Positions 11,024 through 22,491 of a stretch of DNA of 36,572 bases are shown here, one piece after another (position 1 is the stretch's first letter; every line of letters starts with the position of its first letter). The stretch comes from Anaerolineae bacterium (GTDB lineage Bacteria > Chloroflexota > Anaerolineae > Aggregatilineales > UBA2796): positions 21,440-58,011 of the forward strand of contig JANWYI010000020.1 in the NCBI GenBank assembly GCA_025055255.1. The letters run 5' to 3'. A program made the translations under genes and the position numbers. The notes under the pieces were generated by a model, which searched no databases, had not been told where the DNA came from, and saw only the letters and a list, made by a program, of their open reading frames with translations.

Positions 11024-12385
11024 CTAACGCTTGACGATCAAGCTCGTGTTGCCGCCTTGTGCGCGCAGCTCAGCGCGTTGTGCATCAGTTGGAATGTTCA
11101 TCAGGACAACGAGGCGCTTGACGAGCTTGGCAAAAGCAGGCGCTGCAGTTTCGCTGGCGTAGCGCCCAACTTTGTCCAGTTTGACCAAGATGCTCACGCG
11201 CGGCTCATCCGCAGGCAAAAAGCCGACAAACGTCGCCATGCTCAGCTCAGGATCGTATAGACCGGGACAAGTAGCGCAGTAGATTTGCGCTGTGCCAGTC
11301 TTGCCAGCAATTGTGTAGCCCGGCACGCGCGCTTCCTTGCCTTCGCCGACGTTAACTACCTGCACCATGATGTCAGTGATGCGCCGTGCCACGTCAGCTG
11401 AAATTGGAGTGCGAACGGCAGCTGGCACAGCGTAATACTCGCGGTCGCCGTCAACGGTCTTCAGGCGCACATGCGGCTGCATCATCTGACCGCCGTTGGC
11501 AATGGCGTTGACAAACGAGAGCATCTGAAGCGGCGTGACGGTTAAGCCTTGACCGAAACTGTTCGTGGCAAGGTCAGAGTCGCTCCAATACAGATCATTG
11601 GGCAGGCGCAGAATGCCTGCAGCCTCGCCTTCAAGGTCAATACCTGTCGGCTGACCGACGCCGAAGCGCCGCAAGCCTTCGTAAAACTCAGTCGGACCAA
11701 GCACGTCCACAGCTAACCACGTCGTGCCGAGATTCCATGAGCGCACGAGGATGTCCACAAAGCTCTGTGAGCCGTGTGCAGCGCGATCCCAGTTGTAAAC
11801 GCGCCTGCCGCCAACGACGCGGAAAGGACTACCTTCGTAATACGTTGAGTCCTCTGAGACCTTGCCCGATTGCAGAGCTAGTGCGGCTGTGACAACTTTA
11901 AAGACCGAGCCTGGCTCATAAGTGTCGCTAATGGCAGGATTGCGAATGGTTTCCTTGTCGGCGCGGAAGTAGACGTTCGGATCGAAAGTCGGGTAGGAAG
12001 CCATTGCCAGCACTTCGCCTGTGCGCGGATCCATAATGATGATCGTGCCACCAGTGGCGCCGTAGCGATTGATCGCGTCATATAGCTCGCTCTCGGCAAG
12101 GTGCTGGATGCTGCGATCAATGGTCAGGTAGATATCGCGTCCGGGCGGCGGCGCCTCGCTCAGAATAGCGTCAAAAGGAATGCGGCTACGCTCCATGACA
12201 CGGCTCTGACCTGCCAGATCGTCGTTGTAGCCGCCTTCCACGCCGACGTAGCCGCGCCGTAAGTTACCTTCCCAGCCGACAAAGCCGATCACGTGCGCCG
12301 CAAGGCTATTGTGCGGATAAATGCGCTTCGGCTCTGGATCAATCGTGACTGCTAATAAGTTCAAACGCGCCACTTTCTGCGCCAC
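11024..12385 (-). CDS. ftsI: Penicillin-binding protein transpeptidase, catalytic part (C-terminal fragment of a frameshifted ftsI-like gene)
   Basis: Catalytic half of a class B penicillin-binding protein that cross-links septal peptidoglycan. All three active-site motifs are present: SVFK with the nucleophile Ser160, SWN at 216-218, and KTGT at 362 (numbering from the GTG at 12385). The dimerisation-domain end (EPKRIYPHNSLAAHVIGFVG) precedes them. The natural N-terminus is encoded in a different frame immediately upstream (12361-12768). This frame is open from about 12420, so the two join by a one-base slip between roughly 12361 and 12420. The gene is either a true frameshift mutant or a sequence error. 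The joined product would be about 580-590 residues, normal for FtsI. Confidence 0.9.
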   Translation of the reverse strand: MAQKVARLNLLAVTIDPEPKRIYPHNSLAAHVIGFVGWEGNLRRGYVGVEGGYNDDLAGQSRVMERSRIPFDAILSEAPPPGRDIYLTIDRSIQHLAESELYDAINRYGATGGTIIIMDPRTGEVLAMASYPTFDPNVYFRADKETIRNPAISDTYEPGSVFKVVTAALALQSGKVSEDSTYYEGSPFRVVGGRRVYNWDRAAHGSQSFVDILVRSWNLGTTWLAVDVLGPTEFYEGLRRFGVGQPTGIDLEGEAAGILRLPNDLYWSDSDLATNSFGQGLTVTPLQMLSFVNAIANGGQMMQPHVRLKTVDGDREYYAVPAAVRTPISADVARRITDIMVQVVNVGEGKEARVPGYTIAGKTGTAQIYCATCPGLYDPELSMATFVGFLPADEPRVSILVKLDKVGRYASETAAPAFAKLVKRLVVLMNIPTDAQRAELRAQGGNTSLIVKR

Positions 12386-12768
12386 CTCAGCGCCGACAGG
12401 CTGCCGTGCGTGACCAACTCATAAGGTGCGCGGCTGTTGGCAAGCCGCAAAATGCGCTCCTCATCCTCACCGAGTGCCTCTGCCAGTTGGCGAGCAAAGC
12501 GCGCCTTGTCTGTGACGTAAACAGGGCTGATTCCAATCCGATACTCTGTCATGTTGGCAGCCAACAGCTCGCCGTTGCGGTCGTAGATGCGCCCACGCTC
12601 TGGGAAACGGTCTTTGATGACGCGATAGTTGCTGCTAGCAAGGCGCTGCAGATAGGCGGCTACGTCCAACTGGAATTGAAATGAGGCAAGGCGCGCAAAA
12701 AGCAGCACGCCCGTGATGATAATCACGAAGGTGAGCAGTGAAAGACGGCGATTGAAGCTAGTTCGCAC
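12361..12768 (-). CDS. ftsI: Penicillin-binding protein, N-terminal fragment (frameshifted ftsI-like gene)
   Basis: Encodes the cytoplasmic tail, a single membrane anchor (VIIITGVLLFARLASFQF, about 14-31) and the start of the PBP dimer domain, including the conserved RGRIYDRNGELLA motif (about 58-70). After ELVTHG the frame runs into unrelated residues (LRWRRKWRV) and stops, while the expected sequence AEVAQKVARLNL continues in the overlapping frame. A GTG start at 12768 lies 3 bp after the stop of the FtsL-like gene, with AGGAG inside that gene, so the two are translationally coupled. The fragment cannot work alone because it lacks the transpeptidase site. Confidence 0.85.
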   Translation of the reverse strand: MRTSFNRRLSLLTFVIIITGVLLFARLASFQFQLDVAAYLQRLASSNYRVIKDRFPERGRIYDRNGELLAANMTEYRIGISPVYVTDKARFARQLAEALGEDEERILRLANSRAPYELVTHGSLSALRWRRKWRV

Positions 12769-13266: not shown

Positions 13267-13274
13267 AGCGCCGC

Positions 13275-13283
13275 AGTATACCA
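13275..13283 (-). promoter_or_regulatory. Extended -10 promoter of the division genes, probably leaderless
   Basis: The minus strand reads TGGTATACT, with only 8 bases between the -10 and the ATG at 13266. Transcription should start at or within a base or two of the start codon. No ribosome binding site can fit in that space. Confidence 0.5.
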
Positions 13284-13308: not shown

Positions 13309-15255
13309 TCAGCCTGTCTCGGTCAGCTCAGTTGCGCTGCTCTGTGAGCGACCGGGCATTTTATGAATGGTGTGAATGGCGAGCGCTGCAATCAGGTAGG
13401 CAAGACGGCGCACTGTCAATGGACGTTCCTGCCAGCTCAACGCGCGCAGCGCCATCAGAGCAAGTGGGATGAAGTACTCTGCCCAGTGATTCGCCCTCAA
13501 CAAGCCTGCGGCAATGCGGCGCAACTCCATGATCGGAGCGAGCGCGCTGTTATACGGCGGATCAGCGCTGAATGGATCGTCGCTGAGAACGTCAGATGCT
13601 GCGACGCAGGCGCAATTCAGCCGATCCAAGCGCGCAATCGCCTGCCAGACCGAATCCCACGAGTCGGCGAGATACGGCGCGAGCAGCTCAAAGAGCAAGC
13701 TGATCTCAAGCGTTGCCCAGTCGAAGAGCGTGTGACCGTCGCGCGCCCATTCGAAGTCAATCAGCCATGCCTCGTTATTGCGCCCGATCAGGACGTTGCC
13801 GACGTGCAGGTCGCCGTGCATCGGGCAGAACGTGCCGTCTACAGGCGTTTCTAGCAGCGCATGGTAGTGATAGAGCGGATTAGGCAGGCGCTCTGGATAG
13901 CTTGCGTGTGGCGGCAGCGGATCGCTGATGAAATCGAAGTCAGGCGCCAGCGCCAGCACCCGTTCTTGCAGGATGTCATCGCGCGTGCGCAGGACTCTGC
14001 CAGCAACTCGCTCTAAGACGACACCGCGATACAGCGTCGGATGTGCCGCGTGATTGAAGTTCCTCACTGTTACTCGTGAGGCAAGGTTGATCGCCTCAGC
14101 GCCGGCACCTGCCACGAGTTGAACTGTGTTGTTCTGTGCAGGCTTGACCTTTAGGACTGTGAAGTTGTCTAGGACGACTAGGTCATCGGCGTGAAATGCG
14201 CCTCTGGCGCGCAGCGCTTGATGCATTGGCTGAAGTCTGTGCGCGTCCGACGGTGCTTCGGGCAATGCTTCTAGCTCTAAGGCAGGCGGCAGCAGCAAGT
14301 CATATTCCTGCCAGACCGTGAACTTGTACGGCGTGCGCTGATCCCACCATGTGTGCCTGAAAGCATCGTAGAGCTGCTCGCGCAGGAAGCGCGCCACAGC
14401 CTGTGCAGGCTGACTGCGCACAAAGTCTTTCAAGCTCGTTGTGCGCGCGTCTAGGGCGCCTTGAACGTACGAATATTTCAAGCCGCCAATCGGACTGTCT
14501 TCAGGCAGGGCGTCCACTACGAGGTAGGATGTATTAGCAGGCAACTTATCGCGCACATGCTCGTTATAGCGCATTTTTTCCCACCAAATGGCGCGCTGCT
14601 CATGCAGCTTGACCACTGAAGGCGCCAGCGAACGCCCTTGGGCATCGTAGGCGCGCACTAGAAGCACACGCGCGCCGCTGTACGAGTTACCTTCTGAAGA
14701 AAGTGCTCTTTCAATGGTCACTCGTGTACAAGTGCGGAAAATTTGCTGGAGGATTGCCAGCTCTTCAGGCAAAGGCACATAGCGCGGATCGTTGCTCAAG
14801 ACCTGTGGCAGCGGCAAGGTCATCCCAGCAGCGCTAGGTCGCCACTCATTCAAAGCCTCAAGCAACTGCTCACGCGCAACGCCCAGACTGCTCAGTACAC
14901 GGCTGATGATCAGACTATCGCGCTCTTCCAGCAAGGCGCGCAGCAGCGCACGCTCATCAGGCTGCACGCCCTGCTGGATGTAGCTCCGTGCTTTGGCGAA
15001 CACTCGGCTGGCGCGCGGCGTGAGCAGTCCGAGATAACCTGATGCTTCAGAACCTTTGTAGCTCTGAACGACGAACTCTATGTAGTTGCTGGACGAGTTT
15101 TGTTGAGCAAGGAGGTGCGCCGCAATGCCGCTCTCGACACGCAGCAGCGCCAGAAGCAAGTGCTCCACGCCGACATAGTAGTTCTTCAGCTGCGCCGACT
15201 CGTGGCGCGCTTGAGCAAGCAGCTCATCTAATGAAGCAAAACTTGACCGAGACAC
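13309..15255 (-). CDS. Clp-N domain fused to an aminoglycoside-phosphotransferase-like kinase
   Basis: 648-residue fusion. Residues about 5-140 are a double Clp repeat (LDELLAQARHES, VGVEHLLLALL, then a second repeat ERALLRALLEERDSLIISRVL), the substrate-binding domain normally found on ClpA/ClpC, but no AAA ATPase follows. From about 175 there is a kinase-like fold: SYSGARVLLVRA with a later VVK (K216), RFLREQLYDAFRHTWWD in the N-lobe, and the catalytic loop HGDLHVGN (H480, D482, N487) followed by LIDFEWA (D500), as in APH/choline kinases. The N-lobe resembles, from memory, kinase-like ternary-complex-associated domains described in bacterial conflict systems. The start is GTG at 15255, 27 bp after the winged-helix gene, with only weak purine-rich sequence upstream. 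The target is unknown. Confidence 0.75.
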   Translation of the reverse strand: MSRSSFASLDELLAQARHESAQLKNYYVGVEHLLLALLRVESGIAAHLLAQQNSSSNYIEFVVQSYKGSEASGYLGLLTPRASRVFAKARSYIQQGVQPDERALLRALLEERDSLIISRVLSSLGVAREQLLEALNEWRPSAAGMTLPLPQVLSNDPRYVPLPEELAILQQIFRTCTRVTIERALSSEGNSYSGARVLLVRAYDAQGRSLAPSVVKLHEQRAIWWEKMRYNEHVRDKLPANTSYLVVDALPEDSPIGGLKYSYVQGALDARTTSLKDFVRSQPAQAVARFLREQLYDAFRHTWWDQRTPYKFTVWQEYDLLLPPALELEALPEAPSDAHRLQPMHQALRARGAFHADDLVVLDNFTVLKVKPAQNNTVQLVAGAGAEAINLASRVTVRNFNHAAHPTLYRGVVLERVAGRVLRTRDDILQERVLALAPDFDFISDPLPPHASYPERLPNPLYHYHALLETPVDGTFCPMHGDLHVGNVLIGRNNEAWLIDFEWARDGHTLFDWATLEISLLFELLAPYLADSWDSVWQAIARLDRLNCACVAASDVLSDDPFSADPPYNSALAPIMELRRIAAGLLRANHWAEYFIPLALMALRALSWQERPLTVRRLAYLIAALAIHTIHKMPGRSQSSATELTETG

Positions 15256-15282
15256 GCCAATGCAATCTCTTGCCGATAGGCA

Positions 15283-15831
15283 CTATTTGTCTTGATCTGA
15301 GTCTGTCTCTGGTAGCTCAGCAGAGAGTTCCTCGAAGAGCTTGCCGACGACTCTAGGGCGTGGCGGCTCAGACGGACTTTCTTCAGCAGGTGAGGCGAAC
15401 TCAGCTGCTAAGCCGCTGCGAATGTTCACTTTAGGACGACTGGGCTGCTCAGTTGCTGTCTCGTCCACAGCTTTCCAGAAATTGCTCAGGCGTTCACGTC
15501 CACTGCTGTGCCGCGAGGCAGACTTTGTGATCGGTGCGCTTGAGTGAGAGGATGGCTCAGGTGCTTGCTTGGCAGTGTTCGCACGACTAAGCTCGCCGAG
15601 CCTGAAAGTCACTTGGGCAAGCGACTCTTCACGCACCAACCAGCCTTGTGTCACCAGTTCACGCAGATTGACGTCTATTTCAAGGCGGCTCAGGTGTTCC
15701 TCCACAGACTGCGTCGCCAGCTCTACCAGCAGGTCGCCGTAGAGTATCTCGCGTCGGCGTAACATCAGACGCATAATTCGCCGCTGCACTAAAGGCAGAT
15801 CGAGCATATCCGCTGGACTCCATTCAGACAT
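15283..15831 (-). CDS. Winged-helix protein with disordered C-terminal region
   Basis: 182 residues, not assigned to a named family. Residues about 8-80 look like a winged helix-turn-helix: helical DLPLVQRRIMRLMLRR, a second helical block, then LRELVTQGWLVREE and a beta-like VTFRLGE. This could bind DNA or mediate protein contact. Residues 85-160 are Ser/Pro/Glu-rich and probably disordered. A short helix near the end (VGKLFEELSAEL) could be a docking motif. The ATG at 15831 is preceded by AGGAG at eight bases; the open frame extends upstream but without a ribosome site. It lies between the ParA-like ATPase and Clp-N/kinase genes and probably links them functionally. Confidence 0.68.
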   Translation of the reverse strand: MSEWSPADMLDLPLVQRRIMRLMLRRREILYGDLLVELATQSVEEHLSRLEIDVNLRELVTQGWLVREESLAQVTFRLGELSRANTAKQAPEPSSHSSAPITKSASRHSSGRERLSNFWKAVDETATEQPSRPKVNIRSGLAAEFASPAEESPSEPPRPRVVGKLFEELSAELPETDSDQDK

Positions 15832-15973
15832 CTCACACGCTCCTAACAGCACACTGACCAACCAAGCGCAGCCCAACGGTCTAGCTCGCCTGCGCTTGTC
15901 ACAAGTTGGATAAGTCAGGCTCAGATGTGACGTTCGCCAAGCGCTACTGCGCTCAAGGCGGCTAGGAGCGTTT

Positions 15974-16732
15974 TCAGTCTGCAAGCAGAGCGCGCGCTAC
16001 TTGCCGCAACTGTACAGCAATGGCATGGTCAGGGTACTTGGTGACAAAAACGCCTTCACTAGCGAGCGCCATCATCTCATCACTGTGCGGCAACACGGCA
16101 CCGACCTGTGTGGCATAGGTTTGTTCTACCTTGCGCTTAACACTCTCAGCGTTGAAGCTAGTGGGCGTCTTGTTGACCACAAGCATCATGCGCGGCACGT
16201 CCAGTTTGCGCGCCACTTCGACCGTCACGCTAGTGCCTTGAAAATCTTGCTGATCAGGGCGCATGACAATCACCAGAGCATCTGAAATGGCAATCGAAAG
16301 TAGCGTCTCATCGTTTAAGCCGGGATGCGTATCTACCATCAGCACGTCCAGCTGCAGGTCTTCAATCAGACGCTGAAAGCCGTCATTGAGCAAACCGACG
16401 TCGTAGTGTTCGCGCAAAATGCGCGCAATGTCGCTCACTTTGATGCTAGAAGGCACCAAGTAGAGCTTGCCTTGCACTGGCACGCCCAAGTTCGCTGTGA
16501 CGTCGTAAGCCGCCGCTCTGATCTCACAGCGTCCCCACAAGTAGTCGTTCAAAGTGTGCGACATCTGCTCTTCTTCTAACCCAAGCAGCACATGGATGCC
16601 TGGCGACTGAATGTCTGTATCTACCACGCCCACGCGCTTGCCTTCAGCAGCAATCAGTGCAGCGAGGTTCGCTGTTGTGTTAGACTTGCCTGTGCCGCCG
16701 CGAAACGAGTGAATGGAGATAATCTTTGACAT
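15974..16732 (-). CDS. ParA/MinD-like ATPase with variant Walker A (FRGGTGKS)
   Basis: 252-residue deviant-Walker ATPase of the SIMIBI class. The P-loop SFRGGTGKSN (9-18) keeps the phosphate-binding K16, but the signature lysine of KGGVGKT is Arg11. The A' region is VGVVDTDIQSPGIHVLLG, and Walker B with switch II is LDVLMVDTHPGLND. The tail AIAVQLRQVARALL is amphipathic and could touch membrane as in MinD. The ATG at 16732 has GGGAG seven bases upstream. No ParB-like gene or parS site is visible, so chromosome partition is unlikely. It heads a three-gene set with a winged-helix protein and a Clp-N/kinase fusion, behind an extended -10 promoter. A regulatory or positioning switch is inferred. 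Confidence 0.85.
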   Translation of the reverse strand: MSKIISIHSFRGGTGKSNTTANLAALIAAEGKRVGVVDTDIQSPGIHVLLGLEEEQMSHTLNDYLWGRCEIRAAAYDVTANLGVPVQGKLYLVPSSIKVSDIARILREHYDVGLLNDGFQRLIEDLQLDVLMVDTHPGLNDETLLSIAISDALVIVMRPDQQDFQGTSVTVEVARKLDVPRMMLVVNKTPTSFNAESVKRKVEQTYATQVGAVLPHSDEMMALASEGVFVTKYPDHAIAVQLRQVARALLAD

Positions 16733-16794: not shown

Positions 16795-16803
16795 AGTATA
16801 CCA
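16795..16803 (-). promoter_or_regulatory. Extended -10 promoter of the ParA/winged-helix/kinase cassette
   Basis: The minus strand reads TGGTATACT; the transcription start would be near 16788, about 56 bases before the ATG. It lies roughly 90 bp from the divergent liv promoter. Confidence 0.5.
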
Positions 16804-17010: not shown

Positions 17011-18225
17011 ATGAAGACACTCAAGCTGTTCGCTATTTTGGCTATCGTGGCGTTGATCGCCCAAGTCTTCGCAGCGGCGCCCATCAGCGCGCAAGAGAGG
17101 GTCATCAAGATCGCCTCGCAGAGCCCGCTCTCTGGCGGTCAGTCAACGCTTGGCACGGCAATCCGCAACGGCACTGAGCTGGCTATCATCCAGCTGGGCA
17201 AGCAAGTTGAGGAACTCGGCTTCAAGCTGGAGTACGTGCCGTTTGACGATCAGGCGACGCCGGATGTGGGCGTTTCGAATGCGCAGAACATCGTGAACGA
17301 CGCAGCAATTTTGGCAGTGATCGGTCACCTGAACAGTGGCGTGGCGCTGCCGTCCTCAGAAATCTACAACCGCGAAAATCTGGTGATGATCTCGCCTGCT
17401 AATACGAATGTCAACATTACGGATCGCGGCTATCCGACGGTCAACCGTGTCTGCGGTCGTGACGATGCTCAGGGTGCTGCAGGCGCCAAGTTTGCGGTCG
17501 AGGAGCTGAAGATCAAGACGGCGTACGTGCTGCATGACAAGACTGCCTACGGCGAAGGCGTGGCGAATTTCTTTGCGCAGGCGCTTGAGCAGGCAGGTGT
17601 GGAAGTGCTGGGCTTCGAAGGCACAGAGGAGAAGGCAAACTTTGACGCTGTGATCACGCCGATCCTTGCCCAAGAGCCAGACTTGGTCTACTTTGGCGGC
17701 ATTTACAACCAAGCAGCCGTTTTCTTCCGTCAAGCGCGCGAGAAGGGCTTGAAGTCCCAGTTCATGGGTCCAGACGGCATGGACAGCTCTGACTTGGTCA
17801 AGATCGGCGGCGAGGCAGTCGTGGACATGATCTACACCACCACAGCTGGTCCAGCTGCGCTCTATCCTGCTGCTGCGCAGTTCATCGAGGACTACAAGAA
17901 GCAGTTCAACGACGATCCTGAGCCATACGCCGCTGAGGCATACGCCGCCACACAGATCGTCATCAACGCTCTGGTAAAGGCGATCAAGGAGAACAATGGT
18001 CAGATGCCGACGCGCGCTCAGGTGGCGAAAGCAGTCCGTGAGACGCAGGATTTCGAGACCATCATTGGCAAGATCAGCTTTGACGCCAATGGCGACCCGA
18101 AGTTCGCAACTTACTATATCTTGCGCGTCGCCAGCGCTGATCCTGAGAAATGGGGTCAAAATCCGCTGATCGCCAGCATTGAGGCGCCTTCACCGCTCAC
18201 TGCCAAGGAACAGGCAGGCAAGTAA
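17011..18225 (+). CDS. livK: Branched-chain amino acid (or amide) ABC transporter substrate-binding protein
   Basis: Exported receptor of a HAAT-type importer, 404 residues. A signal peptide (MKTLKLFAILAIVALIAQVFAA) ends near residue 27, with no lipobox Cys. The mature domain follows the LivJ/LivK pattern: IKIASQSPLSGGQSTLG, GVSNAQNIVNDAAILAVIGHLNSG, VMISPANTN and KTAYVLHDKTAYGEG, then FMGPDGMDSS. The ligand cannot be fixed from sequence; leucine/isoleucine/valine is usual, but amides and urea are used by relatives. It is the first gene of a five-gene operon, has GAGG before the ATG, and a hairpin follows it. Confidence 0.92.
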   Translation: MKTLKLFAILAIVALIAQVFAAAPISAQERVIKIASQSPLSGGQSTLGTAIRNGTELAIIQLGKQVEELGFKLEYVPFDDQATPDVGVSNAQNIVNDAAILAVIGHLNSGVALPSSEIYNRENLVMISPANTNVNITDRGYPTVNRVCGRDDAQGAAGAKFAVEELKIKTAYVLHDKTAYGEGVANFFAQALEQAGVEVLGFEGTEEKANFDAVITPILAQEPDLVYFGGIYNQAAVFFRQAREKGLKSQFMGPDGMDSSDLVKIGGEAVVDMIYTTTAGPAALYPAAAQFIEDYKKQFNDDPEPYAAEAYAATQIVINALVKAIKENNGQMPTRAQVAKAVRETQDFETIIGKISFDANGDPKFATYYILRVASADPEKWGQNPLIASIEAPSPLTAKEQAGK

Positions 18226-18263
18226 CTGCCGAGTTGCCGCGTCTACCATGAGCGGCTACCAGC

Positions 18264-18288
18264 AAGGGAGGCAATTCGCGCCTCCCTT
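18264..18288 (+). terminator. Attenuating hairpin between livK and livH
   Basis: AAGGGAGGC pairs perfectly with GCCTCCCTT around a 7-base loop, followed by GTTTGC rather than a clean T-run. It ends 35 bp before livH. A partial terminator or 3' stabiliser that leaves livK in excess over the permeases is the likely role. Confidence 0.65.
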
Positions 18289-18323
18289 GTTTGCATCAGA
18301 CAAATTTTTGGAGCACCTCGTAT

Positions 18324-19511
18324 ATGACCGCTATCCTAAGACCAGAAGACATCACTGCAAATAAGTTGATCAGCAGTGCAGCTGAGTGGACACTTCAGTA
18401 CGTCCTTAAGCCGATTGGACAAATTCTTTTGTTTGTGTTCATAGCAGGCGGTAGTATCTCACTATTAGCGCTTGTGGTCGGCTTTGTGCTGCAGACCGAC
18501 TGGCACGGCATAGATATCCTGCGCGTGCCTGCGCGCATTAACTTATTTGAACAAGTCCTGCGCCAGCTGCCGAATATGCTCTTGGACGGCATCACAATTG
18601 GCTTTGTGTACGCCGTGATCGCGCTCGGCTACACCATGGTCTACGGCGTGCTGAAATTCATCAACTTTGCGCACAGCGAAATCTTCATGCTCGGCGCTGT
18701 GGTCGGCTACGAAGTGATGATGCGCCTGAATGAAGCAGAGCTGCTGAGCAGCTTGCCACCTTTGTTAGTCGTTGTGCTGATGATAGTCATGGCAATGGTG
18801 GTCTGTGGTGGCACTGCAGTGATCGTTGAGCGCGTCGCCTATAAGCCGCTGCGCGGCGCGCCGCGCCTTGTGCCGCTGATCTCAGCCATTGGCGTCTCGT
18901 TCTTCCTGACCGACTTTGTGCGTGCTTTCCAAGCGCTCAATCGCAACGTCTTCAACATGCCGTATCTGACTGACCGTGTGCCGTTCTTTAACGAACGGAT
19001 TGTTTTTGCACAAGGCGTCTCAACTACCTACACAACGGTCATCATTATCGTTAGTGCGATCATCATGCTAGTCGGCTTGAATTACTTTGTGAATGCCACA
19101 AAAATCGGCAAAGGCATTCGCGCTGTCTCGCAAGATCAGGCGACTGCCAGCTTGATGGGCATTAACGTCAACCAGATGATCACGATCACGTTTTTGGTCG
19201 GCGGCGCGCTTGGCGGCGCTGCAGGTGTGCTGTTTGGCTTGAAAACGACCAACATCACGCCTTATGTGGGCTTCATTCCGGGCTTGAAGGCGTTCACGGC
19301 TGCTGTGCTAGGCGGTATTGGCAACATCACGGGCGCCATGCTAGGCGGCTTGCTGCTGGGCATGTTGGAGGCATTTTTCTCGGCGCTCTTGCCGTACTTC
19401 CCAGCCTTAGGCTTGGGCTATAGCGATATTTTCGCTTTCGCCGTGCTGATCCTTGTGCTGCTGTTCCGTCCAACTGGTCTGCTCGGCAAGAAAGTGGATG
19501 AGAAGGTCTGA
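18324..19511 (+). CDS. livH: Branched-chain amino acid ABC transporter permease LivH
   Basis: Integral membrane subunit, 395 residues. The family core starts near residue 80 (LLDGITIGFVYAVIALGYTMVYGVLKFINFAHSEIFMLG split across the first two helices). It contains the cytoplasmic GIRAVSQDQATASLMGIN loop that contacts the ATPases, and ends in FRPTGLLG. Usual LivH proteins are about 290-310 residues; here some 80 extra N-terminal residues include an additional membrane helix (ILLFVFIAGGSISLLALVVGF). The ATG at 18324 has GGAG 10 bases upstream, a little far. It is followed 3 bp later by livM. Confidence 0.92.
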   Translation: MTAILRPEDITANKLISSAAEWTLQYVLKPIGQILLFVFIAGGSISLLALVVGFVLQTDWHGIDILRVPARINLFEQVLRQLPNMLLDGITIGFVYAVIALGYTMVYGVLKFINFAHSEIFMLGAVVGYEVMMRLNEAELLSSLPPLLVVVLMIVMAMVVCGGTAVIVERVAYKPLRGAPRLVPLISAIGVSFFLTDFVRAFQALNRNVFNMPYLTDRVPFFNERIVFAQGVSTTYTTVIIIVSAIIMLVGLNYFVNATKIGKGIRAVSQDQATASLMGINVNQMITITFLVGGALGGAAGVLFGLKTTNITPYVGFIPGLKAFTAAVLGGIGNITGAMLGGLLLGMLEAFFSALLPYFPALGLGYSDIFAFAVLILVLLFRPTGLLGKKVDEKV

Positions 19512-19514
19512 GCG

Positions 19515-20984
19515 ATGACAATGCGCGTATTTTCTTCCAAAAATTCGAATCAGTCTGTTCAAATGTCAAGTTGGCGCGATGCGTTGCCAGTCATTTTTGG
19601 AATAGCCTATGTGCTAATAGTCTTTTTGCTGCTGCGCAACCTGAGTCGTGCCGATCTGTGGTTTCCAACTTATTCGTCAATTCTCTTCTCACTGTTTGTC
19701 TTCTCGCCGTTCATCATTTTTGCCCTGAAGATTCCGCTAGAGCTGCGCATCGTGCTGATTGCCATCATCGGCTTAGTGCTGATGCCGATTCTAGGTATGC
19801 AGGACTCGTTCTACCTAGAGCTGATCACACAGATCGCCATTTTCGCAGCTATGGCAATCGGGCTGAACATCGTAGTCGGCTTTGCGGGCTTGCTGAACCT
19901 AGGCTATGTGGCATTCTTTGCAGTCGGCGCGTATTTGTGGGGCATCTTCACTTCGAACGCCAACACGATTGTGCGCGTCACAGGTGCGCAGGCGGCGCCA
20001 GAGCTGTTCTGGCTGTTCATCTTCATCGGCATGATCTTGGCAGCTTTCACGGGCATTTTGCTTGGCTTCCCAGTGCTGCGCCTGCGCGGCGACTACCTCG
20101 CCATTGTCACGCTCGGCTTTGGCGAGATTATCCGCATTCTGGTCAGCAACCTGAGCAACATCTCGTCTAATCGGCGCAATCCGATCAACATCACTAATGG
20201 CGCACAAGGCTTGCCGGGCATTGTCAGTCCGCCGTTGCCTGACTTTGCCTTCCAGCTTGTGGAAAGTCTGACCAATGGCTTGGGCTTGCCTGTTAACAAT
20301 CCACGCGCTTTCACCTATCAGCTGTTTTATTACGGCTTGGTGCTGGTCGTCTGTGCGATTGTGGCGCTGCTGGCGGCACGGCTGGACAACTCGCCAATTG
20401 GACGCGCTTGGACGGCAATCCGTGAGGATGAAGTGGCGGCGCAAGCTATGGGCGTACCAATCGTCAAGATGAAGCTGCTCGCCTTTGCGCTCGGCGCGTC
20501 GTTTGCAGGCGCCATGGGCGTGATTTGGTCGGCGCGCAACACTTTCGTCAGCCCAGAGAGCTTCAGCTTCATTCAGTCCATCTTCATCTTGGCAATCGTG
20601 ATTGTCGGCGGCATGGGCAGCATTCGCGGCGCGATCTTGGGCGCAGCGATTGTGACTTTGCTCAACCTGCTGGTGCTGAAGAATTTCTCACTCCAGATCA
20701 ACGCGCTCAGGAACATTGACTGGGTCGTGCCGATCATTGACTTCCCGATCCGCAATTGGCCTCAGCAGCTTGAGCCAGCGCGCTATGAGCGCTTCGTCTT
20801 CGGTCTGCTGCTGATTCTCATGATGATCTTCCGTCCATCGGGCATTTTGCCTGCCAAGCGCCGTCAAATGGAACTGCAGCGCGAGGAAGAAATTTCTGAG
20901 CAAGAGATTGCAGCGGATGCAGCCACTCTCAAGCCCGAAGACCTGCTCGGCGCACAGCCGCAACAGGCAAAGGAGAAGCCTTAA
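19515..20984 (+). CDS. livM: Branched-chain amino acid ABC transporter permease LivM
   Basis: Second membrane subunit, 489 residues. Several N-terminal helices precede the family core, which includes GLNIVVGFAGLLNLGYVAFFAVGAY and FPVLRLRGDYLAIVTLGFGEIIRI. The coupling loop reads GRAWTAIREDEVAAQAMGV, and the last helices have GGMGSIRGAILGA and FRPSGILP. A charged cytoplasmic tail of about 45 residues (Glu/Gln-rich after AKRRQ) is longer than usual. The ATG lies 3 bp after the livH stop. The transport path is formed together with LivH and powered by LivG and LivF. Confidence 0.92.
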   Translation: MTMRVFSSKNSNQSVQMSSWRDALPVIFGIAYVLIVFLLLRNLSRADLWFPTYSSILFSLFVFSPFIIFALKIPLELRIVLIAIIGLVLMPILGMQDSFYLELITQIAIFAAMAIGLNIVVGFAGLLNLGYVAFFAVGAYLWGIFTSNANTIVRVTGAQAAPELFWLFIFIGMILAAFTGILLGFPVLRLRGDYLAIVTLGFGEIIRILVSNLSNISSNRRNPINITNGAQGLPGIVSPPLPDFAFQLVESLTNGLGLPVNNPRAFTYQLFYYGLVLVVCAIVALLAARLDNSPIGRAWTAIREDEVAAQAMGVPIVKMKLLAFALGASFAGAMGVIWSARNTFVSPESFSFIQSIFILAIVIVGGMGSIRGAILGAAIVTLLNLLVLKNFSLQINALRNIDWVVPIIDFPIRNWPQQLEPARYERFVFGLLLILMMIFRPSGILPAKRRQMELQREEEISEQEIAADAATLKPEDLLGAQPQQAKEKP

Positions 20985-20987
20985 GCT

Positions 20988-21767
20988 ATGCCGCTCTTGG
21001 AAGCACAAGGCGTTTTGAAGCGCTTTGGCGGCTTGATCGCCGTTCACAAAGTAGACTACTACATCGAGCCACACACCATCAATGCCATCATCGGACCAAA
21101 TGGCGCAGGCAAGACTACTTTCTTCAACCTGATGACGGGCATTTACACGCCTGATGAAGGCAGGATCATCTTTGACGGCAAAGATATCACTGGTCTCAAG
21201 CCGAACCAGATCAATCGCGCAGGCATTGCGCGCACTTTCCAGAACATTCGGCTCTTCGGCGCTATGACCGTCATTGAGAACTGCCTCGTCGGCATGCATC
21301 GTCGCTTGCACGTTGACCTTGCCCAGACCATGTTGCGCTTGCCCGCCTTTGGCAGGCAGGAACGCGAGGCGCAGCGCCGCGTTGAAGAGTTGCTGGAATT
21401 CGTCGGCTTGCGCGACAAGGCAAACGAAGTCGCCAAAAATTTGCCCTACGGCGATCAACGGCGTCTTGAAATCGCCCGCGCCTTAGCAAGCGATCCGAAA
21501 CTGCTCCTGCTAGACGAGCCAACAGCGGGTATGAATCCGCAGGAGACCATTGCCGCGATGCAGCTCTTCCGCGCTGTGCGCGACGAATTCGGTATCACTG
21601 TGCTGCTGATCGAGCATGACATGCGCGTGGTCATGGGCATCTCAGAGCGCATCACTGTGCTGGACTACGGGCAGAAGATCGCTGAGGGCACGCCTGATGA
21701 GGTGCGGCGCAATCCGCGCGTGATCGAGGCATATCTAGGGCGCGGCAGCGCAACGAGTCAGAACTGA
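20988..21767 (+). CDS. livG: Branched-chain amino acid ABC transporter ATPase LivG
   Basis: Cytoplasmic ABC ATPase, 259 residues. Walker A is GPNGAGKT (36-43) and Walker B is [13 protein letters not shown]. The H-loop histidine is in LLIEHDM. The ABC signature is degenerate, [15 protein letters not shown], which is normal for LivG. The C-terminus shows the LivG-specific [18 protein letters not shown]. It begins 3 bp after livM and is followed by livF. Confidence 0.95.
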
Positions 21768-21780
21768 GAGGCGTCACACA

Positions 21781-22491
21781 ATGGCACTGCTAGAGCTAGA
21801 GAACGTTCACACTTACTACGGGCACATCCACGCCTTGAAGGGCATCTCGCTGAAGGTCAACGAAGGCGAGGTGGTGACACTGATCGGCGCTAACGGCGCA
21901 GGCAAAAGCACCACGCTGCGCACCATCAGCGGCTTGGCGCGTCCGCGCATGGGCAAGATTATGCTTGAGGGCGTGCTGCTGAACAACGTGCCGCCGCACA
22001 AGATCACGCGCATGGGCGTCGGTCACGTGCCGGAGGGACGACGCATCTTCCCAGAGCTGACCGTGCGCGAGAACCTTGAGATGGGCGGCTTTTCCGTGCC
22101 GCGCCAGCAGCTGCAAGAGCGCATGGAGTACGTCTTCCAGCTCTTTCCGCGTATCAAAGAACGCCTGAATCAGTTAGGTGGCACACTGAGCGGCGGCGAG
22201 CAACAGATGCTGGCAATGGCGCGCGGTCTGCTGCTCAATCCGCGCATTTTGCTGCTGGATGAGCCTTCAATGGGCTTGGCGCCTGTGCTGGTTGACCAAG
22301 TCTTCGATGTCATCCACCAGTTGCATGCCAAAGGCACGACCATTTTGTTAGTGGAGCAGAACGCGCGCATGGCGTTACAGGTGGCAGATCGCGGCTACAT
22401 CCTGCAGTCAGGGCAGATCGTGATGGCGGATAGCGCCAAAGCGCTGCAGAACAGCGAAGTCGTGCGCAAAGCCTACCTTGGCGAGGAATAG
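21781..22491 (+). CDS. livF: Branched-chain amino acid ABC transporter ATPase LivF
   Basis: Partner ATPase of LivG, 236 residues. Walker A is GANGAGKS (36-43), the signature is LSGGEQQMLAMARGL and Walker B is ILLLDEPSMGLAP. The H-loop position holds a glutamine-containing VEQNARMAL, standard for LivF. It starts 13 bp after livG and ends the operon. The converging murJ gene ends 5 bp away, with no obvious terminator between them. Confidence 0.95.
   Translation: MALLELENVHTYYGHIHALKGISLKVNEGEVVTLIGANGAGKSTTLRTISGLARPRMGKIMLEGVLLNNVPPHKITRMGVGHVPEGRRIFPELTVRENLEMGGFSVPRQQLQERMEYVFQLFPRIKERLNQLGGTLSGGEQQMLAMARGLLLNPRILLLDEPSMGLAPVLVDQVFDVIHQLHAKGTTILLVEQNARMALQVADRGYILQSGQIVMADSAKALQNSEVVRKAYLGEE

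Follow-up and report, generated by a model that had tools for sequence, protein, structure and literature searches.

A likely recent junction of two older signaling modules, an ATPase-winged-helix pair and a Clp_N-TCAD9 kinase, in an Anaerolineae genome

A stretch of 36,572 nucleotides from the genome of an Anaerolineae bacterium (Chloroflexota; GenBank assembly GCA_025055255.1, contig JANWYI010000020.1, positions 21,440 to 58,011; hereafter, the window) contains three adjacent genes that encode a MinD/ParA-type (A/D) ATPase, a winged-helix (WH) protein, and a fusion of a double Clp_N domain with a TCAD9 kinase domain. With some reserve, we favor the interpretation that two signaling modules, both older than the locus and inherited separately, were recently joined here. 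A new three-gene system is not shown by the comparison of loci; rather, two recurrent pairs emerge, namely, the ATPase with WH and Clp_N-TCAD9 with a small FHA protein. Both pairs are apparently undescribed: neither the ATPase-WH nor the Clp_N-TCAD9/FHA module turned up in literature searches. The features of the locus are the following (window coordinates):

16795..16800 (-): TATACT upstream of the ATPase gene, candidate -10 element by our own reading (a consensus scan did not report it)
15974..16732 (-): MinD/ParA-type (A/D) ATPase, 252 aa, ATG start, P-loop SFRGGTGKS
15832..15973 (-): gap of 142 bp between the ATPase and WH genes; occupied by a PknB-type kinase gene in genomes G398, G404, G270 and G400
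15283..15831 (-): WH protein, candidate partner of the ATPase, 182 aa counted from the ATG at 15831
13309..15255 (-): Clp_N-TCAD9 fusion protein, 648 aa, GTG start
14824..15240 (-): double Clp_N domain with the ClpC N-domain fold, residues about 6-144
13438..14679 (-): TCAD9 domain, APH-fold kinase, residues 193-606
13756..13818 (-): catalytic segment H480-D482-N487 plus D500 (HGDLHVGN...DFE), from a comparison of 22 orthologues

An earlier, sequence-only reading had placed three co-oriented genes at 13309-16732; all three are indeed there, intact and on the minus strand, with a gap of 27 bp between the WH and kinase genes, and the domain calls made in that reading (an ATPase, a winged helix with a disordered tail, a Clp repeat fused to a kinase) are borne out by profile matches and predicted structures. 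The open frame of WH runs on upstream to 15984; the ATG at 15831 is the most likely start. A gene set for a Liv-type branched-chain amino acid ABC transporter (17011-22491, plus strand) diverges from the ATPase gene.

The same reading took the three genes for a single signaling or conflict cassette, a proposal that did not survive comparison. Of the 109 fetched loci with the ATPase and the 68 with TCAD9, none but the window (retrieved under several ids) belongs to both sets, so that the triplet was rejected as a conserved module. Thus, the homologues lack a shared neighborhood, the outcome that the reading had named as counting against it, as far as the triplet is concerned, but not within the ATPase-WH and FHA-Clp_N-TCAD9 pairs. 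In another genome of the same genus (G398), an ATPase 89% identical and a Clp_N-TCAD9 protein 65% identical to those of the window are encoded on different contigs. A further genome of the genus (G399) carries, at the edge of a contig and next to the start of an intact Clp_N-TCAD9 gene, one in-frame ORF (L004:2-262 = L172) in which residues 20-73 of the ATPase are joined to the C-terminal tail of WH, through either a deletion or a misassembly. Because this remnant lies beside the kinase gene, the adjacency is not an accident of one assembly, and the neighborhood seems to predate the split of the two genomes.

The ATPase matches the AAA_31/ParA (3e-19) and minD_arch (1.6e-27) profiles, which places it in the A/D family; its nearest solved structures by sequence are archaeal MinD and FleN/FlhG, with Soj also close. 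The signature lysine of the deviant Walker A motif (KGGxxK[S/T]) is replaced by arginine in the window protein. This arginine of SFRGGTGKS is conserved across most of the homologues, and the P-loop of BcsQ, RGGVGTT, shows the same change (PMC9178275). The WH domain (about residues 6-80; pLDDT 88-96 for residues 11-80 in the AlphaFold2 model, with a tail of low confidence) adopts a winged-helix fold that matches MarR/ArsR/BlaI-type proteins by both PDB profiles and fold comparison; the disordered tail carries a helix with a conserved W119 (FWxxVD). Of the 115 ATPase genes, 75 have a co-oriented WH gene within 3 kb, a count inflated by the training of the WH profile on hits in the vicinity of ATPase genes; by comparison, there were 3 distant WH hits, and the TCAD9 loci (402 kb) gave none. 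Judging from gene order, the ATPase and WH form a conserved pair. A/D ATPases dimerize upon ATP binding and work via very diverse partner proteins (PMC10241942), and WH is the obvious candidate for this role.

The family is found well beyond the window: homologues with E < 1e-60 are present in about 78 of the 396 genomes of the class (hand count), and relatives at 54-67% reside on plasmids of Deinococcus, Nostoc, Pseudanabaena, Kovacikia and Rhizobium, with more matches in Streptomyces. The companions of the ATPase and WH are exchangeable and include a PknB kinase, a cNMP-binding protein or nucleotide cyclase, sigma factor genes, and GlgX or anti-sigma genes. ATPase-associated WH domains also occur in fusions with nucleotide cyclase-AAA_16, cNMP-binding and HD domains (L097:4365-7937, L109:9994-13632, L133:7222-9027, L103:6886-8916). 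The annotated plasmid relatives adjoin SpoIIE/STAS, CHAT, AAA_35 and RiPP genes; GlgX and STAS/anti-sigma factor antagonist genes are next to the ATPase in L153 (a Deinococcus plasmid) and L157 (a Nostoc plasmid), thus outside Chloroflexota in two phyla, and SpoIIE in Deinococcus. A plasmid-partition origin was rejected: ATPase homologues are present on 13 plasmid records, and the annotated ones are located beside signaling or biosynthesis genes. A defense-system label was dropped as well, the PADLOC matches to the ATPase being distant only.

In the ATPase tree, the window protein is the sister of that from G398, followed by those from G270, G404 and G400 (clade support 100/95), and all four relatives have the gene order ATPase-PknB kinase-WH. 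Hence the gene order and the tree, taken together, indicate that a PknB-type kinase gene was lost from the ATPase-WH cluster of the window; no remnant of it was detected in the 142-bp gap. Among the kinases encoded elsewhere in the same genome, the best matches are at 47-53%, apart from one at 61% that is truncated at a contig edge.

The third protein combines a Clp_N match (7.9e-12) with a kinase region that the sequence-only reading had likened to ternary-complex-associated domains; that likeness was well seen, given that the region is the already catalogued Pfam domain TCAD9 (PF19974; E 7.5e-38, 131.2 bits vs the curated cut-off of 40 bits), and by sequence it belongs to no resistance or metabolic kinase family. 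In comparisons of the AlphaFold model, the Clp_N part resembles ClpC N-domains (Z about 16) and the kinase part resembles enzymes of the APH/methylthioribose/choline-kinase fold (Z about 15). The kinase is probably active because the catalytic Lys, the HxD motif, the Asn and the metal-binding Asp are invariant in 22 orthologues (K216, E226, H480, D482, N487 and D500). The pocket of the ClpC phosphoarginine receptor includes two glutamates, E32 and E106 (PMC12583610); in Clp_N-TCAD9, the equivalent of E32 is an invariant Glu, and the position of E106 is mostly occupied by Arg, with a Glu one column earlier, so the complete receptor pair is not present. No match to Clp_N-TCAD9 was found in phages, and a phage origin was accordingly discarded.

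Clp_N-TCAD9 is present in 24 of the 41 genomes sampled from the order, and in 10 of 11 genomes of the family. A small FHA gene (PF00498) is located directly upstream of it in 22 of 34 genomes, with a distribution that follows families (18/18 in f2-f4, 2/4 in f5, 2/10 in f1, 0/2 in f62), and from this arrangement, FHA and Clp_N-TCAD9 appear to be a conserved pair. The FHA neighbor is gone from the genus of the window, where the branch of the Clp_N domain is long; therefore, the function of Clp_N-TCAD9 may have shifted in this genus. A Thr-rich C-terminal tail is present in many of the orthologues and could, at a guess, be an FHA ligand. Other TCAD9 architectures (L011, L013, L014, L015, L025) include AAA_16-TCAD9, STK-TCAD9 with SH3, CBM, WD40 or TPR, and TCAD9-EAD7.

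APH-fold kinases act mostly on small molecules. Nevertheless, the active TCAD9 kinase would most likely phosphorylate itself or a client on Thr, a guess that draws on the FHA neighbor and the Thr-rich tail. The FHA protein would then read the Thr mark made by Clp_N-TCAD9, and the Clp_N domain would recruit clients or touch a Clp machine. The combination of an active kinase, an FHA neighbor and a Clp-type recognition domain suggests that this module is a phospho-dependent recruitment step. In the other module, the A/D ATPase would probably be an ATP-dependent dimer switch that WH links to variable signaling input. Coupling of both modules, with the TCAD9 kinase standing in for the lost PknB kinase, is possible in the lineage of the window, but the comparison of loci does not support it.

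The absence of an AAA unfoldase, as claimed in the sequence-only reading, holds for the window region but not for the genome, which encodes a dedicated ClpC paralogue in a co-oriented cluster with an STK-TPR kinase and an FHA gene (L185:4876-11178, G000:C66). The ClpC-kinase pair is conserved through much of the order (L188-L227), and a related FHA gene follows ClpC paralogue-STK-TPR in several genomes with enough sequence read. Across the 41 genomes, the presence of the ClpC paralogue is correlated with that of Clp_N-TCAD9: 22 have both, 6 and 2 have one only, and 11 have neither (Fisher p 3e-4, in a test that ignores the shared ancestry of the genomes). Derivation of the TCAD9-linked Clp_N from this paralogue was considered and not retained: the mean identity is 30% vs 23% to housekeeping Clp, the unrooted tree is non-deciding, and the copy in the window has no preference (26 vs 25%). 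In a bolder and unlikely scenario, Clp_N-TCAD9 would write, and FHA would read, a phosphorylation mark by which clients are delivered to the dedicated ClpC paralogue with its own kinase-FHA operon; for phosphothreonine, this would be the equivalent of the phosphoarginine (McsB)-ClpC route.

Directly downstream of Clp_N-TCAD9, the window contains cell-division genes:

13275..13280 (-): TATACT just upstream of ftsL, by our own reading; the same element precedes ftsL in L004 and L005
12772..13284 (-): FtsL-like gene, conserved in the genus, with an ATG at 13267
11024..12768 (-): ftsI/PBP2-type transpeptidase gene with one frameshift near 12361-12385

The ftsI gene is normally essential, so the frameshift is probably a sequencing or assembly fault; intact ftsI genes (580 aa) are found in L005 and L010. 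Clp_N-TCAD9 heads the order ftsL-ftsI-methyltransferase in the window, L004, L005 and L010, and could on this account be taken for a cell-division regulator that acts on ftsL-ftsI. We deem this very unlikely: the linkage is limited to the genus of the window, leucine/isoleucine biosynthesis genes often adjoin Clp_N-TCAD9 in other loci, and, because of the TATACT element shared with L004 and L005, ftsL may be transcribed from a promoter of its own. Less probable still is the idea that the locus belongs to, or is left over from, a conflict system of the vWA-MoxR-VMAP type. TCAD9 has been described as vWA-MoxR-VMAP-associated (PMC10910872), and EAD7, STK or AAA_16 domains occur in other TCAD9 proteins; however, the Clp_N-TCAD9 gene is widespread in the order and not a variable effector, and a scan of the cassette, the genes downstream of it and ten other proteins of the window found no MoxR or vWA domain.

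Among the rival readings, the least improbable, albeit still unlikely, is a single three-gene switch in which assembly is under the control of the ATPase, WH serves as adaptor, and TCAD9 replaced the PknB kinase of the relatives. The short gaps and co-orientation would fit co-transcription and a genuine new coupling, the relatives have a kinase within the ATPase-WH cluster that the window lost, and VMAP ternary-system effectors tend to couple S/T/Y kinase domains to MinD/ParA or wHTH (PMC7159879). Against this, the arrangement is confined to the window and the G399 remnant, in which the ATPase and WH are apparently broken beside an intact kinase gene, and the genome encodes many other kinases, among them the truncated one at 61%. 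Somewhat less plausible is a partition or positioning system in which WH binds a centromere or cargo, as in pNOB8 ParA-AspA, a possibility raised by the affinity of the ATPase to archaeal MinD, FleN/FlhG and Soj, by the diversity of A/D partners (PMC10241942), and by the occurrence of AspA among the fold matches of WH. AspA was not accepted as a specific relative, being one of many generic winged-helix matches and no better than many MarR/ArsR/BlaI proteins; furthermore, the neighbors of the ATPase are signaling rather than segregation genes, and no ParB match was found among the cassette and the scanned neighbors, in agreement with the sequence-only reading. A recent junction of two modules is the reading that we prefer over these.

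What the analysis offers is a distinction between a recent juxtaposition and two recurrent modules. In one of them, an A/D ATPase, of a family that extends over five phyla, is consistently partnered by WH in Chloroflexota; the other pairs the Clp_N-kinase with FHA, and the order in which it occurs has in addition a dedicated ClpC-kinase-FHA operon. The two modules supply partners that can be tested directly, for orphan ATPases as well as in phospho-regulated proteolysis.

Compared with known systems, the ATPase shares the fold family, the P-loop and a small adjacent partner protein with archaeal MinD, FleN/FlhG and McdA-McdB, and differs in the Arg at the signature-Lys position, the WH partner and the signaling neighbors. 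With pNOB8 ParA-AspA-ParB, the window has in common a ParA-type ATPase and a winged-helix protein, but no partition context was found and the resemblance to AspA is unspecific. The kinase region matches TCAD9 (PF19974) in sequence over residues 193-606 and in its APH-type fold, whereas the window protein stands apart in the Clp_N fusion, the ancestral FHA neighbor, and a locus that has no vWA-MoxR partner. Finally, the double Clp_N fold and the conserved E32 equivalent are shared with the Bacillus subtilis ClpC N-domain (5hbn) and the stand-alone plant ClpT1, in contrast to which Clp_N-TCAD9 has no AAA+ modules and mostly Arg at the E106 position.
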